In this document: positions 847 to 58,771 of the stretch, one piece after another
Layout of the letters: the number at the start of each line of letters is the position of its first letter
Position numbering within the stretch: position 1 is the stretch's first letter
Origin: Solimonas sp. K1W22B-7
GTDB taxonomy: Bacteria > Pseudomonadota > Gammaproteobacteria > Nevskiales > Nevskiaceae
Direction: 5' to 3'
Length of the DNA stretch: 64,000 bases
Assembly (NCBI RefSeq): GCF_003428335.1
Contig: NZ_CP031704.1
Span: forward strand, 1,240,001-1,304,000
The notes under the pieces: model-generated
Told to the model about the DNA's origin: nothing
The model's database searches: none
What the model saw: the letters and a program-made list of their open reading frames with translations, nothing else
Translations under genes and position numbers: made by a program

Positions 847-1114
847 TGTCTGGAATAAACCTGCCGCACCGGACCCCTGCAGCCCGGCGGGCAGTGAAGC
901 TAGCTTGTTAAAGAAGCCAGACGAGTCCGCGACCTATTCGCGGATGCGTCAGCAGAGCCCTACTCGGTCAGCCCGGGTCGTCTGGTGCGGCGCCATACGC
1001 AGCGCCTGGAGGAGAGAGGCCTCTCGCAGCTCGTGGGACTATTTTAATTTCTGGCGGGTGTGATCTCCTAACGGAGTTCCGTATTTTTGCTGGGGTTAAT
1101 ATCTTCGGGCCTCC

Positions 1115-1199
1115 CCCTCTCTCGGCAACTGCTCCATGCGTTGCCCTACCTCGGGAATCCATTCCCTCGCCAACCCCTCTCCCACGAGGGGAGAGGGGC
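1115..1199 (-). repeat. Dispersed repeat, copy 1 (second copy near 58.6 kb)
   Basis: Read on the minus strand, this 85-bp block closely matches 58611-58694. Both start with a GGGAGAGGGG hairpin and continue with GGATGCCCGAGGTAGGGCAA-like sequence (one or two substitutions here). They end near an ATTGCCGAG-like motif. The hairpin module also occurs alone at 8358, 17285 and 27120. It is an intergenic repeat with no coding capacity. Confidence 0.8.
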
Positions 1200-1248
1200 T
1201 CAAGTTCCTTGCGAACTGGCAACGATCAGGTGAAGCCTGTTTGGGATC

Positions 1249-1664
1249 ACTCTTCCGAAGGCTTGATGAGCGTGAGCGAATGCTTTTGACGTTGGGCCCC
1301 TGTTGTGCGGGTGCCTGCGCGGGGGGCGGGCGCAGGGTCGAGCCGGACAGGACGTCCGGCCGAGGACACGCAGGCCATGGATGGCCTGTGTGTCCGACCC
1401 GTCGCGCTCGACCACCGTGCAGGTTGCCCCGCTTCAGCGGGGCCGCCCGCACCCAGGGTGTGCTTTCTTTGGTTACTTTCTTTGCACAAGCAAAGAAAGT
1501 GACTCGCCCTTAGGCGAAATAAACCAACAGGGATCCACGGCTCCCGACCGGCGTAGTCGCCGGCATCACCGCTGTGCGCGCCCTCGATACACCGCTACGC
1601 GGCACTCGGGATGAACGGTTCGGTGGGAATAGAGGAAGGTCGTGAGCAAGCTCGCTCCTACATT
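1249..1664 (+). repeat. 0.42-kb composite hairpin repeat, copy 1
   Basis: The sequence aligns end to end with the reverse complement of 52894-53319. It is a string of short inverted repeats: a GCCGGAC/GTCCGGC stem, a GGCCAT/ATGGCC-centred stem, CCCCGCTTCAGCGGGG, a 14-bp stem at 1472-1503, CGCCCTTAGGCG, CCGGCG/CGCCGG, and a terminal GAGCAAGCTCGCTCCTAC motif. The stem at 1472-1503 has a different sequence from its counterpart in the other copy but is still self-complementary. No coding role is evident. Confidence 0.85.
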
Positions 1665-1741
1665 CCGGGCCTTTCGACACGCCGTGAGAGGGAGAACTGC
1701 GGTGGGTGTAAACTCAGCGCATCGACCGCAGCTTTTGACTC

Positions 1742-2074
1742 ATGCCCACCAAACCCCGCCTCTACCGCATCCAGTTCACCAACCGCGACCAGGTCTACGA
1801 GATCTACGCGCGCGAAGTCAGCCATGGCTCGATGCTGGGCTTCGTCGAGATCGGCAAGCTGGTGTTTGGCGAGCGCAGCAGCATCGTCGTCGACCCGGGC
1901 GAGGAGAAGCTGAAGAACGAGTTCGAGAACGTCGAGCGCTTCTACGTGCCGGTGCATGCGGTGATCCGCATCGACGAGGTCAACAAGCAGGGCACGGCGC
2001 GCATCCTCGGCGAGGGCGGCAAGGTCACGCCGTTCCCGACGCCGTACAGCTTCGGCGGCGAACCGCGTAAGTAA
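1742..2074 (+). CDS. DUF1820 family protein
   Basis: A 110-residue cytosolic protein that I recognise as the DUF1820 family of gammaproteobacteria; its function is unknown. Diagnostic stretches are YRIQFTNRDQVYEIYARE near the N-terminus, FGERSSIVVDPGEEKLKNEF in the middle and a VPVHAVIRIDEV block near residue 80. The length is normal for the family. The ATG at 1742 gives a protein starting at the usual family position. It stands alone between a repeat region and a bidirectional terminator, so it is probably a single-gene unit. A small, possibly regulatory or nucleic-acid-associated role is only a guess. Confidence 0.85.
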   Translation: MPTKPRLYRIQFTNRDQVYEIYAREVSHGSMLGFVEIGKLVFGERSSIVVDPGEEKLKNEFENVERFYVPVHAVIRIDEVNKQGTARILGEGGKVTPFPTPYSFGGEPRK

Positions 2075-2133: not shown

Positions 2134-4527
2134 TCACGGCGTCGGATCAAACCCCTTGGTCGTGCAGGGCTCGCTGCCGCAGACGTTGACCACGCGGCCG
2201 TTGGAGCGCAGGAAGGCGCCCTTCTGGGCCTGGGCTCTCGGGTCCTTGCGCGGGAAGCTGTGCGGGTCGGCGCCGTAGCCCAGTTCCGGGCGCGGCGGGC
2301 GGTTGTCGATCGGCGGGGTGGCGACGCCGTCCGGGTTCGGCGAGCCGTCGAGCTTGAACAGCGGGCCGCTGTCCCAGACCACCAGCGCCGAGCCGTTGTG
2401 CGGGTAGCTCAGGCAGGGGATGCCGTAGTAGGGCTCGTCGTCGGCATGGCGGCGGTGGATGTTGAGTCCCTCCGGCTCCATCTCCACCTGCGGGTGCACG
2501 CCCGCCAGCACCTTGTCGCCGCGCTGTGCGCGCGAGCCGCCGACCACGGCCGGGCAATGCAGCTTGGCGCCGATGGTGCGCGCCGCGACCTCGGCGGTGG
2601 TCATCGATACTTGGTGATCGCCGAAGGCCGGGTGCAGCAGCACGCGCTTGGGCGGCGTGTTGGGCAGCGGGTCGTCGGCGCGCAGGTGCTGCACGTAGCC
2701 GTTCATCTCCGAACGGTCCCACAGCAGCTGGATCAGCGACAGCGTGAAGGCCTGGTCCAGCGAGGCAGGGTAGGCGGTGTAGAAGAATGCGGCGTAGGTG
2801 TCGAAGTCGACGCTGCGCTGCAGCAGCGTGGAGTAGTTCATGCCCGGCACGCCGAGCACGCCGGCGCGGATGTCCGGCGACAGCGCCACCAGCGAGCCGC
2901 CCATGATGCCGCCCTGCGAGTTGCCGTCGTAGAACAGCTCGCGGCGGTCGATCACGCACTTGTCGCCGACGCGGAAGGCGGCGTTGGAGCAGAAGCCGCC
3001 GGCGTGGATCATCGCGCGGCCGATGAACATCCAGTTGAGGAAGCCCTGCTGGCCGCGGTCGGTGAGCGTGGTGAAGTTGCTCATGTCGAGCAGCAGCGTC
3101 AGCACGTTGAGCACGTCGGCTTCGGCCATGCCGATCCAGTCCGGTGCGCAGAACATCATGCGCTGGTTCTGCGCGGTGTCGCCGATGTGGCCGCCGCCGA
3201 CCTCGCCCTGGCTGCCGAGCAGGCCATGGCCGTACATCGAGGGGCGCACCAGGTTCACGCTGATGGCATCGGCCGCATTGGCGGCGTTGCCGAAGGCGAC
3301 GCGCGGGATGCGGCAGGTGAACGTGGCGCTCATCGTGCCGTTCTGCGTCGGCAGGCCGTCGCTGCTGCCGCTGGTGTTGAAACGCGAGCCCGGGGCGCCG
3401 CTGCCGGTCAGGAAGTTCGGCACGGTGACGCTGCCGGTGACCTGGCGTGCGATGGTGGCGTTTTCCTCGGCGCTGAAGTCGGTGACCGCGTCGATGGTGA
3501 ATTCCGGCGCGGCGTTGCCGAGGTCGCCGAAGGCGGTGTCGCGGATCTTCAGCGCGCGTTCGCTGAGGTTGCGCTCGCTGGCCACGGTGAAGTCCCAGGC
3601 CAGGTAGAGATCGGAGCGGCCGATGCCGGCGCGGCCCAGCTTCTCGAAGATCTCTTCCATGTGGGCGCGGCGGTCATTGATCGCGGCGCGCTCGCTGACG
3701 TGGTTGTCGCGGTAGATGCGGAAGGCGGTGGAGGGTTCGATGATCTCGCCCGCGCCGTCCTTCATGCGGCGCAGCGCCACGATGTAGCGGTGACCCTCTT
3801 CGAAGTTCTTGGCCGGGCGCACGATCAGCGCCGGGCCCGGGTCGTTCAGCGGGTTCTCCGGCAGCGGCACGACGTCGCACAGCGATTCGAGCGTGTGCAG
3901 CAGGTCGGTGATCTGGTCGATCTCCAGCAGGCCGCTGACCACGGCCAGCGGATCGGGAGCGTCGCAGAGACTGGCCTTGGTGAGGTTGGCGTCCAGCTCC
4001 GACCAGATCAGGTGGCGCTCCAGCGTGTCGGCGTCGATCACCACGATCGGCTGGTCGGCACGCAGGCTGGCGCCGATGTCGGTGATCGGCACGGCACCGG
4101 TCTTGGCCAGGTCCAGGCCCGGGATGCGCGTGAGGATCGCATTGCCCGGCGAGAAGCCGTCGTTGCGGTTGAAGTCGGTCGGCGTGATCGGCTTGCCGGT
4201 GATGTTGCGCGGCATCGACAGCAGCTTCAGGTTGACGTGGCGGCCGGTGTCGGTGCTGTCGTCGGCGACCGTGAAGTAGTCGTTGGGCCAGGGGAAGGTG
4301 CAGTAGTGCGGGTCCAGCGGATCGCAGCGGCTGGCGAACAGCAGGTCGGTGCCCAGTTCGCTGTCGATGGAGGCCTGCTCGGCCGGGATCGGTTCCGGCG
4401 TGCCGCCGCCGGGGTTCTCGCCGGGCGTCGCGCTGACCTCGGAGCTGCTGTGGCAGCCGGCCAGCGCGGCGAACAGCAATGCGAAAGCGAGACGGCCGAG
4501 GCCGCCGGGAGTGAATGTCGACACCAT
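2134..4527 (-). CDS. Large lipase-like lipoprotein with alpha/beta-hydrolase motif
   Basis: A 797-residue exported protein. The first 25 residues form a lipoprotein signal peptide with lipobox LAGC (Cys25), so the mature protein should be acylated and held in the outer or inner membrane. A GNSQGG motif with candidate nucleophile Ser537 fits an alpha/beta-hydrolase nucleophile elbow. The N-terminal half, with phrases such as FPWPNDYF, IPGLDL and RYIVALR, resembles the N-terminal domain of secreted Pla-1/Cef-type bacterial lipases. The substrate is unknown; lipids or esters are plausible given the neighbouring lipid genes. A GAGGAG ribosome-binding site precedes the ATG at 4527. The assignment to the hydrolase fold is good, but the exact family is inference. 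Confidence 0.65.
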   Translation of the reverse strand: MVSTFTPGGLGRLAFALLFAALAGCHSSSEVSATPGENPGGGTPEPIPAEQASIDSELGTDLLFASRCDPLDPHYCTFPWPNDYFTVADDSTDTGRHVNLKLLSMPRNITGKPITPTDFNRNDGFSPGNAILTRIPGLDLAKTGAVPITDIGASLRADQPIVVIDADTLERHLIWSELDANLTKASLCDAPDPLAVVSGLLEIDQITDLLHTLESLCDVVPLPENPLNDPGPALIVRPAKNFEEGHRYIVALRRMKDGAGEIIEPSTAFRIYRDNHVSERAAINDRRAHMEEIFEKLGRAGIGRSDLYLAWDFTVASERNLSERALKIRDTAFGDLGNAAPEFTIDAVTDFSAEENATIARQVTGSVTVPNFLTGSGAPGSRFNTSGSSDGLPTQNGTMSATFTCRIPRVAFGNAANAADAISVNLVRPSMYGHGLLGSQGEVGGGHIGDTAQNQRMMFCAPDWIGMAEADVLNVLTLLLDMSNFTTLTDRGQQGFLNWMFIGRAMIHAGGFCSNAAFRVGDKCVIDRRELFYDGNSQGGIMGGSLVALSPDIRAGVLGVPGMNYSTLLQRSVDFDTYAAFFYTAYPASLDQAFTLSLIQLLWDRSEMNGYVQHLRADDPLPNTPPKRVLLHPAFGDHQVSMTTAEVAARTIGAKLHCPAVVGGSRAQRGDKVLAGVHPQVEMEPEGLNIHRRHADDEPYYGIPCLSYPHNGSALVVWDSGPLFKLDGSPNPDGVATPPIDNRPPRPELGYGADPHSFPRKDPRAQAQKGAFLRSNGRVVNVCGSEPCTTKGFDPTP

Positions 4528-8357: not shown

Positions 8358-8383
8358 CCCCTCTCCCGCTTGCGGGAGAGGGG
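8358..8383. repeat. CCCTCTCCCGC-type palindromic repeat
   Basis: A perfect 12-bp inverted repeat (CCCCTCTCCCGC / GCGGGAGAGGGG) with a 2-nt loop lies 12 bp after fleQ. The same module recurs at 17285-17414, 27120-27143 and 58611-58771. It may also slow or end transcription after fleQ, but there is no T-run downstream on the plus strand. Confidence 0.8.
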
Positions 8384-8450
8384 AACTGAAGCCCCGCCAA
8401 ATCCTTGACGACTCAAGCCCCGGAAACCGCGCCATGAATCCGTTTTCCCC

Positions 8451-17284: not shown

Positions 17285-17414
17285 CCCCTCGCCCGCTTGC
17301 GGGAGAGGGGCAGGGGAGAGGGTTTCTGTGTATGGCGGGATGGCCAGCCTGGCCACGATTTACAGAAACCCTCTCCCGCCCTCCGGGCACCCTCTCCCGC
17401 AAGCGGGCGAGGGG
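17285..17414. repeat. Paired CCCTCTCCCGC-type repeats in inverted arrangement
   Basis: Two GGGAGAGGG hairpin modules face each other, with TTTCTGT and ACAGAAA at the inner ends, so the whole block folds into a long imperfect inverted repeat. It lies between the convergent anbu and alpha-E genes and may act as a bidirectional transcription end. Confidence 0.78.
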
Positions 17415-27119: not shown

Positions 27120-27143
27120 CCCTCTCCCGCTGGCGGGAGAGGG
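27120..27143. repeat. CCCTCTCCCGC-type palindromic repeat
   Basis: A perfect 11-bp inverted repeat with a 2-nt loop, the same module as at 8358-8383. Confidence 0.8.
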
Positions 27144-27198
27144 AACTGGTTCAGGGTCGCCATCCATGGCGGGGCTTCACTTCCTGATCTAGCCCCGG

Positions 27199-37584: not shown

Positions 37585-37658
37585 TGTAGGAGCGGCTGTT
37601 AGCCGCGAAGGAAGGTGATCATGATGAACTCCCTTCGCGGCTAACAGCCGCTCCTACA
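37585..37658. repeat. Long palindrome (TGTAGGAGCGGCT family)
   Basis: Two 27-nt arms starting TGTAGGAGCGGCTGTTAGCC are complementary around a 20-nt loop. It lies between convergent speD and coq7, next to the speD terminator. The outer arms are identical to those of the palindrome at 12124; the inner parts differ but stay paired. Confidence 0.92.
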
Positions 37659-52805: not shown

Positions 52806-53485
52806 TCCCGTCGCGCGCCCGGCCATGGATGGCGTCACCGCTTGTCCCTTTCTCCTTGCTGACAGAAGTTCGGGTATCTAACCCTTTGCCGTGATTGTAG
52901 GAGCGAGCTTGCTCGCGACTCCGTTCGATTCTCACCGAACCGTTCATCCCGAGTGCCGCGTAGCGGTGTATCGAGGGACGCGCACAGCTGGTGGTGCCGG
53001 CGACTACGCCGGTCAGGGTCTGTTGTCCTCTGGAGGTTTATTTCGCCCAAGGGCGAGTTACTTCTCTTTGATATACGTCAAAGAGAAGTAACCAAGAGAA
53101 AACGTACCCTTGTATCGGCGCCCCGCTGAAGCGGGGTTCCCCGCCCAGTGGTCGGTCGCCGAGGGGTCGGACACACAGGCCATCCATGGCCTGCGTGTCC
53201 TCGGCCGGACCTCCTGTCCGGCTCGACCCCTGCGCCCGACCCCTGTGCGGGCGCCGCTACGAGGGAACCCGGAACATCAAAAGCATTCGCCTTGCTCACC
53301 AAGACTTCGGAAGAGGAGTCGGTTTCGGGCGTTAAACGATTGGCCAATTCGATCGGCGATCCAAAGTCGCTTCTGTCTGTGCGCCTCCTCCACCTGTCCC
53401 AATCTATCAATCCACTGGCCGCGCCTCCCATTGGTTGCCCCTGAGCCGCCCTTCACCATGGCGGCGAACTCAGGGAGAGAGCGGG
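52806..53485. other. Repeat-filled intergenic region before the wax ester synthase gene
   Basis: About 0.7 kb with no credible gene. The 0.43-kb composite repeat takes up 52894-53319. The remaining 53320-53485 should hold the promoter of the acyltransferase gene. I see no convincing -35/-10 pair there. The short frames on both strands are inside the repeat and match those in the other copy only through the shared DNA. Confidence 0.7.
52894..53319 (-). repeat. 0.43-kb composite hairpin repeat, copy 2 (inverted)
   Basis: The reverse complement aligns with 1249-1664 over its full length. It shows the same order of hairpins, including an identical 16-nt CCCCGCTTCAGCGGGG. Its 15-bp stem at 53057-53092 (GTTACTTCTCTTTGA with its exact complement) replaces the different stem of copy 1, so pairing is kept while sequence changed. 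One end is TGTAGGAGCGAGCTTGCTCG. Confidence 0.85.
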
Positions 53486-58610: not shown

Positions 58611-58771
58611 CCCTCTCCCGCTTGCGGGAGAGGGGCAGGCGAGGGCATGGATGCCCGAGGTAGGGCAATGCATGGAGCAATTGCCGAGGAGAGGGTTGCT
58701 GTAACGCTCGAGAGATTCACAGAAGCCCTCTCCCGGCCTCCGGCCACCCTCTCCCGCCAGCGGGAGAGGGG
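58611..58771. repeat. Two CCCTCTCCCGC modules with a dispersed repeat between
   Basis: A GGGAGAGGGG hairpin starts the block. The following 60 bp match the dispersed repeat at 1115-1199, and a second hairpin module (CCCTCTCCCGCCAGCGGGAG) ends it. It lies in the 209-bp gap between the SDR and thiolase genes and may weaken co-transcription. Confidence 0.82.

Follow-up and report, generated by a model that had tools for sequence, protein, structure and literature searches.

The chain of hairpins at positions 1,249 to 1,664 of the 64,000-nucleotide stretch analysed here (the window) belongs to a real and widespread element. Its RNA motif is already known as the Rfam family TwoAYGGAY (RF01731), while the mobile composite that carries it, the tail that recurs across phyla, and the orientation linked to replication in some genomes are new. 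With somewhat less than even confidence, it is interpreted here as a REP-associated non-autonomous element, inserted strand-specifically at replication and carrying a CsrA/RsmA-type RNA.

Searching the whole genome of Solimonas sp. K1W22B-7 (one contig of 5.37 Mb) returned 64 matches, 22 of them covering at least 194 query bases, and yielded approximately 22 near-full copies of the hairpin-chain repeat. A sequence-only reading of the window had aligned 1249-1664 with the reverse complement of 52894-53319 over the full length, and this inverted alignment was recovered (83% identity over 416 query bases); it had also named a genome search as a check, and the 22 copies dispose of the possibility that only these two exist. 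The single 0.42-kb unit that it described was mistaken: the repeat is module A, of approximately 326 bp, and the remainder is a mosaic tail. Module A is common to the 22 genomic copies, spanning 1250..1575 on the + strand in copy 1 and, from the sequence and the genome search, 52990..53315 on the - strand in copy 2. The element starts at 1250 and 53315, respectively, and TCTTCC opens 16 of the 22 copies, with a near form in most others and a divergent start in L007. When the 22 copies were aligned, a common body extended to approximately 1575, beyond which the copies differ, with module B, REP hairpins, and CCCTCTCCC-type repeats in mosaic arrangement, and the succession of module B and REP after module A was missing, shifted, or substituted in many copies. 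Module B, which occurs apart from module A too, lies at 1580..1624 (+) in copy 1 and at 52932..52979 (-) in copy 2, the latter placed by sequence and alignment. The REP-type hairpins were located by sequence at 1639..1662 (+), where the - strand reads a GTAG-hairpin at its 5' end, and at 52896..52919 (-). Other repeats in the window include CCCTCTCCC-type units at 8359-8391, 17286-17318, 27120-27152, and 58611-58643, an inverted REP pair at 37585-37658, and a 71-nt inverted repeat pair, 87% complementary, at 1121-1191 (just left of copy 1) and 58618-58688.

On the + strand of copy 1, the predicted fold consists, in order, of an outer stem, a long inner stem, two loop hairpins, a GC hairpin, the tail hairpin, and two small hairpins. 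The outer stem P1, which contains covarying pairs, joins 1296-1313 with 1444-1461 (1296..1461), and the long stem P2 joins 1314-1333 with 1404-1423 and then 1335-1339 with 1396-1400 (1314..1423). Hairpin 1 (1342..1360) exposes the loop AGGAC at 1349-1353 and hairpin 2 (1364..1395) the loop ATGGAT at 1377-1382, followed by the GC-rich hairpin 3 (1426..1443). The tail module (1463..1503, +), delimited by its cross-phylum conservation, comprises CTTTCTTTG (1463-1471) and hairpin 4 (1472-1503); hairpin 5 (1504..1517) coincides with a terminator-like site found by scanning the - strand (1518-1503), and hairpin 6 (1548..1563) is seen in both alignment and fold. Compensatory change had been claimed for the stem at 1472-1503, and this was observed: it has 14 bp with one T-G pair, and its counterpart in copy 2 (53057..53092, -) forms 15 bp with both arms changed.

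Covariation was assessed in 31 copies from this genome and three genomes of the same genus. Of 57 predicted pairs, 54 were counted; 21 showed changes on both sides, pairing was kept in 97.0% of cells, and P2 alone had double changes in 9 of 17 pairs, although these counts are not independent events since the copies are related. The covariation score, a check that the sequence-only reading had proposed, was 0.238, compared with 0.119 for shuffles, none of 500 of which scored as high, and with no more than 0.050 for controls with slid partners. The RNA fold of module A in copy 1 reached z = -8.2 on the + strand and a likewise good z = -6.2 on the - strand. In DNA, one arm of a palindrome can serve to correct the other, so covariation alone is no proof of an RNA; of the earlier claim that the fold is under selection, the part that stands is that the fold is kept while the sequence changes, with repair of the fold as an alternative cause. 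In four copies (L172, L173, L174, and L175) the apical half of hairpin 2 is swapped for a similar stretch of approximately 110-130 nt with its own hairpins.

The core of the element matches RF01731 at 1333..1403 (+) in copy 1, with 48.8 bits against a cut-off of 43, and at 53163..53229 (-) in copy 2, where loop 1 is AGGAG and the score of 40.3 bits falls below the cut-off; 20 of the 22 genomic hits pass it. The defining TwoAYGGAY arrangement is present, namely an adjacent pair of hairpins with AYGGAY-type loops on a common stem, loop 1 having the shorter AGGAN form. The Rfam family has the same core, with two A(N)GGA-loop hairpins and a shared stem, but its model comprises core and outer stem, whereas here the core sits within a longer composite with a tail and in tens of copies. 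Matches occurred in 36 of 85 genomes of the order, representing 10 of 21 genera, and ranged within one family from 0 to at least 28, the maximum being found in one genome of the order (G039) in which only 28 candidates were scored. In the phylum survey, in which six candidates were scored per genome, 35 of 398 sampled genomes were positive, 34 of them, this genome counted, in the same class; none of 14 control genomes had a match. BLAST found 43-61 matches in each of four genomes termed Pseudomonas-like, a guess from copy type and REP sequence, and some genomes contained head-to-head RF01731 pairs approximately 130-300 nt apart. One Pseudomonas-like genome (G274) held 120 RF01731 matches, some as head-to-head pairs. 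The available text of one source lists TwoAYGGAY for human gut, gamma-Proteobacteria, and Clostridiales (PMC2864571). Matches to Antizyme_FSE and MIR1883 were rejected as chance. Identity with RsmU of Xanthomonas was also rejected, since the accessible part of the source gives no Rfam match for that RNA (PMC7694677).

Loop sequences were surveyed in 66 copies from the genus, retrieved by BLAST with the whole module. Hairpin 1 carried GGA in all 59 loops read by script (AGGAT 40, AGGAA 6, AGGAC 4, AGGAG 3, AGGA 3, ATGGAT 3) and in four more by eye; the seven left unread consist of these four (AGGA or ATGGA), L180, in which the hairpin is lost, and L176 and L184, which are without the core. Hairpin 2 carried GGA in 57 loops read by script (ATGGAT 40, AGGGAT 11, ATGGAC 5, AGGGAC 1) and in two mis-parsed loops that are ATGGAT and AGGGAT by eye, the seven unread being L162 with AAGCAT and no GGA, L172-L175 with the hairpin replaced, and again the two copies without a core. 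All 59 Pseudomonas-like copies had GGA in both loops (two hairpin-1 loops by eye), as read by a script that sought loops starting with A. Across genera, ACGA-form loops, without GGA, made up 12 of 224 in a motif scan built on (G/C)GA, which left 12 of 111 loci undetected. Within the genus the stems of hairpin 1 are almost invariant, so it is mainly by comparing genera that loops are seen to be fixed and stems free. Around tails, A(N)GGA hairpins were found within 300 nt upstream in 29 of 130 cases on the + strand against 2 of 130 on the other strand, and downstream in 4 of 139; each of eight control loops scored 0-5 of 130 upstream on the + strand, and on the - strand one reached 16 of 130.

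Paired GGA hairpin loops, a feature of RNAs that sequester CsrA/RsmA, are present, with L162 and the ACGA loops as exceptions, and the retention of GGA in the loops suggests a protein-binding element. The small RNAs CsrB, CsrC, RsmX, RsmY, and RsmZ likewise carry GGA in hairpin loops, but the element has only two sites, many dispersed copies, and no promoter-like site found; to our knowledge, no transcript of it has been described. One csrA gene is present in this genome. Since sequestration of CsrA by TwoAYGGAY had been proposed before, in the available text of PMC4333381, the idea is not new, and no later test of it was found in the accessible parts of the literature on TwoAYGGAY, CsrA, sponges, and repeats. 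According to the available text on Pseudomonas putida KT2440, RsmA, RsmE, and RsmI pull down intergenic sequences beside ISPpu8, one Rsm target being a long palindromic region (PMC7937890); ISPpu8 is assigned to the IS4 family in the part of PMC3056050 that was available. Like the element, these sequences are intergenic and at least one is palindromic, a likeness taken from the published description, and if they were RF01731 elements, Rsm binding would already have been observed.

Genome contigs were scanned for the tail hairpin and its CTTTCTTTG repeat as an exact pattern of 30 bases, and at least 120 stretches across phyla contained it, among them Caballeronia, Lysobacter, Xanthomonas, Stenotrophomonas, Thiobacillus, Marinobacterium, Selenomonas, Chitinophaga, Segetibacter, and others, with Ilyobacter as well and three viral contigs. 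In Selenomonas a two-GGA-loop core precedes the tail, as here; the Caballeronia and Bacteroidota copies that were read have a different sequence before it. New here is that core and 3' tail hairpin make up a single composite, and that the tail is found again in several phyla, frequently beside different cores. A pattern of 30 exact bases shared across phyla calls for a factor that recognises it, and the literature returned nothing relevant for the letters of the tail. Inverted tail pairs approximately 400-570 bp apart, with the tails outward, were seen in L211, L213, L223, L263, L270, and others; in Caballeronia and other beta-proteobacteria they enclose long palindromes whose cores differ. 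In L241 and L282, the 4.5 kb between two tails, where ORFs are present, was considered as a possible autonomous form of the element, which led nowhere. A short insert in the tail-hairpin loop of L016, L113, L176, and L179 recurs inverted in L098, L178, and L186, as if hairpin loops flip.

Insertion of the element is well supported by comparison, at one site, of a 12-kb stretch of G370, a Pseudomonas-like genome, containing one copy with three relatives. Where G370 has the element, G428 has an ordinary REP pair, G394 a single fused REP, and G321 a different short stretch without the element; as the G370 copy lies within the REP pair, one insertion is simpler than three losses. The L018 query gave no clean empty site. 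Among the three identities that the sequence-only reading had offered, the mobile unit gains from this empty site and the structured RNA from the known Rfam family, protein binding being suggested by the GGA loops. Many copies are nevertheless old and retained: when 16 copies from the same genus were compared with those of this genome, 11 had a long flank in common with one of them on at least one side; both long flanks are shared in four of those 11, the site of copy 1 included, and a twelfth match (L116) is weak.

A right-hand REP stands at one fixed distance in 51 of the 59 Pseudomonas-like copies, and a left forward REP in only 22 of 59, the left ends abutting REPs in many copies but not all. 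In the window, a REP was seen to the right of each of the two copies, and the aligned stretch includes a right-hand GTAG-type REP in only six of the 22 copies here. The placement at the 3' side, the REP pair as empty site, and a single-stranded DNA route that would fit the orientation bias recall REPINs and their RAYT/TnpA-REP transposases, from which the element differs in its structured internal part of approximately 400 bp, in the scarcity of the left forward REP, and in that REPs themselves are unbiased. The P. fluorescens repeats R200 (320 bp) and R26 (352 bp) are similar in size and genus, a lead taken from their description only, and a Tail-repeat-Tail placement, described for P. fluorescens repeats as a group, resembles the element (PMC2718517, in its available text). 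A MITE of a DDE transposon was rejected: no target-site duplication recurred consistently when the ends of 59 copies were inspected by eye, and the alignment showed no inverted ends for single copies. Phage and plasmid origins were also discarded, the window copy having no phage match and matching six plasmid records by the tail only (Caballeronia replicons of 0.67-1.7 Mb and one Ilyobacter plasmid). Two Pseudomonas-like copies matched one and no plasmid records, and a longer Pseudomonas-like stretch matched three phage records, the best being a Pseudomonas phage (35% of the query at 92%).

GC skew places the origin near the contig start in G370 and G394 and, only weakly, in this genome; with the origin taken there, copies lie mostly on the - strand in replichore 1 and mostly on the + strand in replichore 2. 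This rule was followed by 19 of 22 copies here, 30 of 41 in G370, and 30 of 41 in G394 (Fisher p 0.0015, 0.0028, and 0.008). Convergent gene pairs provide the informative test, as gene direction is symmetric there and cannot decide orientation; 28 of 33 copies between such pairs followed the rule (p = 6.6e-5; 14 of 16 in G370 and 14 of 17 in G394, which are related genomes), and 11 of 13 did so in this genome. A two-arc test without an assumed origin was applied to eight genomes, G456 having too few copies; G142 (p 0.0025), G000 (0.035), G370 (0.022), and G394 (0.035) fitted, and no pattern appeared in G146 (p = 0.25), G003 (0.98), G274 (0.63), and G270 (0.84, seven copies). Replication-linked orientation bias is thus a real feature of some genomes that others (four of the eight) lack, and where present it offers a direct handle on how the element moves. 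Single REPs showed no replichore bias, so the bias is not a general property of REPs.

In the preferred reading, the element would be a non-autonomous, REP-associated repeat copied strand-specifically into intergenic DNA at the replication fork; most likely, a Y1 (TnpA-REP/RAYT-like) transposase would recognise the REP at its 3' side and move it as single-stranded DNA. In the observed orientation the lagging-strand template is the - strand, whose 5' end bears the canonical REP, and a Y1 transposase acting on single strands would on that account give such an orientation. IS608 and REPINs are compared in the available text of PMC3116915, and TnpA-REP recognises GTAG and ssREP according to that of PMC8266576. 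This genome has 11 Y1_Tnp matches, nine over the cut-off, but none was found in G039 despite its at least 28 copies; for this reason, and because REPs are unbiased and the GTAG-type REP is infrequent here, the enzyme is only a proposal. The + strand would give a branched RNA presenting two A(N)GGA hairpin loops of the CsrA/RsmA recognition form, so that a transcript through the element could bind a single RsmA dimer and contribute to titrating RsmA. A bolder version, doubtful in our estimate, is that of a transposable CsrA sponge, in which one family, joined by a tail hairpin common to Proteobacteria, Bacteroidota, Negativicutes, and Fusobacteria, spreads predicted paired CsrA-binding hairpins as replication-oriented insertions and titrates a global regulator. 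If true, a mobile repeat would be carrying an RNA family of unknown function as its cargo, and transposition would make strains differ in how many CsrA/RsmA sites they have. For Xanthomonas, where no CsrB/RsmXYZ homologue is reported in the accessible part of PMC7694677, relatives could possess in the element a possible source of RsmA titration.

The strongest competitor, still rather unlikely, is an element acting as DNA only, with hairpins that serve transposition or repair in single strands and have no RNA role, its loops and stems being kept by an enzyme or by arm-to-arm correction. Structured RNAs are expected to show commoner GT wobble than these stems, which within the genus are nearly all Watson-Crick (1319 cells against 15 GT and 12 AC), and this rarity speaks for DNA, as does an orientation that, where biased, tracks replication rather than gene direction. 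DNA energies point the same way, the + strand being the stabler DNA in 20 of 22 copies here, 57 of 59 Pseudomonas-like copies, and 52 of 78 from other genera; RNA energies argue against it in the other genera, where the + strand is the stabler RNA in 70 of 78 copies, while the corresponding counts of only 8 of 22 here and 35 of 59 Pseudomonas-like copies tell against the preferred reading. In the strand-symmetric wobble test, GT to AC was 15:12 in the genus, hence no strand signal there, and 8:7 in the 22 copies with tail, but GT exceeded AC across genera (24:2 in other genera of the order, 12:4 in Pseudomonas-like copies), contrary to a DNA-only role; counts of 52:12 and 43:3 came from structures or loops chosen on one strand, and the symmetric test is the trusted one. 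One pair of the tail stem, counted in 67 oriented hairpins after leaving out a multi-phylum row biased by the search pattern, was T-A in 27, T-G in 39, C-G in 1, and C-A in none, which likewise disfavours DNA only. The kept loop motif is moreover the CsrA one, with one loop position free (AGGA followed by T, A, C, or G). The evidence is mixed: the + strand is favoured between genera and not clearly inside the genus, and RNA and single-stranded DNA are not separated.

Gene context, obtained with our own gene caller, bears on a further and improbable explanation, that of a bidirectional terminator or mRNA 3'-end stabiliser kept between converging genes. Thirteen of the 22 copies lie between convergent genes, seven have both neighbours against the element, so that neither transcribes its + strand, two have both along it, and none is divergent, and the Pseudomonas-like copies are similar (33 of 59 convergent, 4 divergent), as a terminator would predict. 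The same placement would, however, be expected if insertions in promoters and operons were purged, as is argued for other repeats in the available text of PMC2718517. Terminator-like sites number five in window positions 900-2000 against 0.7 expected, four of them inside the element and on both strands, but the T-tracts are poor, the L333 stretch has two sites against 1.1 expected with only one in the element, and neither the GGA loops nor the replichore bias is explained. Least probable of all is a stable family of small regulatory RNAs at fixed loci, which the flanks common to 11 of 16 same-genus copies would suit and which is weakened by the empty site in relatives, the 0 to at least 28 matches within one family, the mosaic tails, and the lack of a promoter-like site at the element.

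In the window, copy 1 is flanked by an MCP-type gene at the window edge and a DUF1820 gene, and copy 2 by a cytidylyltransferase-like gene and a wax ester synthase-type gene. A 797-aa open frame at 2134-4527 on the - strand, for which Pfam gave no match at E 0.001, may come from reading a true gene on its opposite strand.
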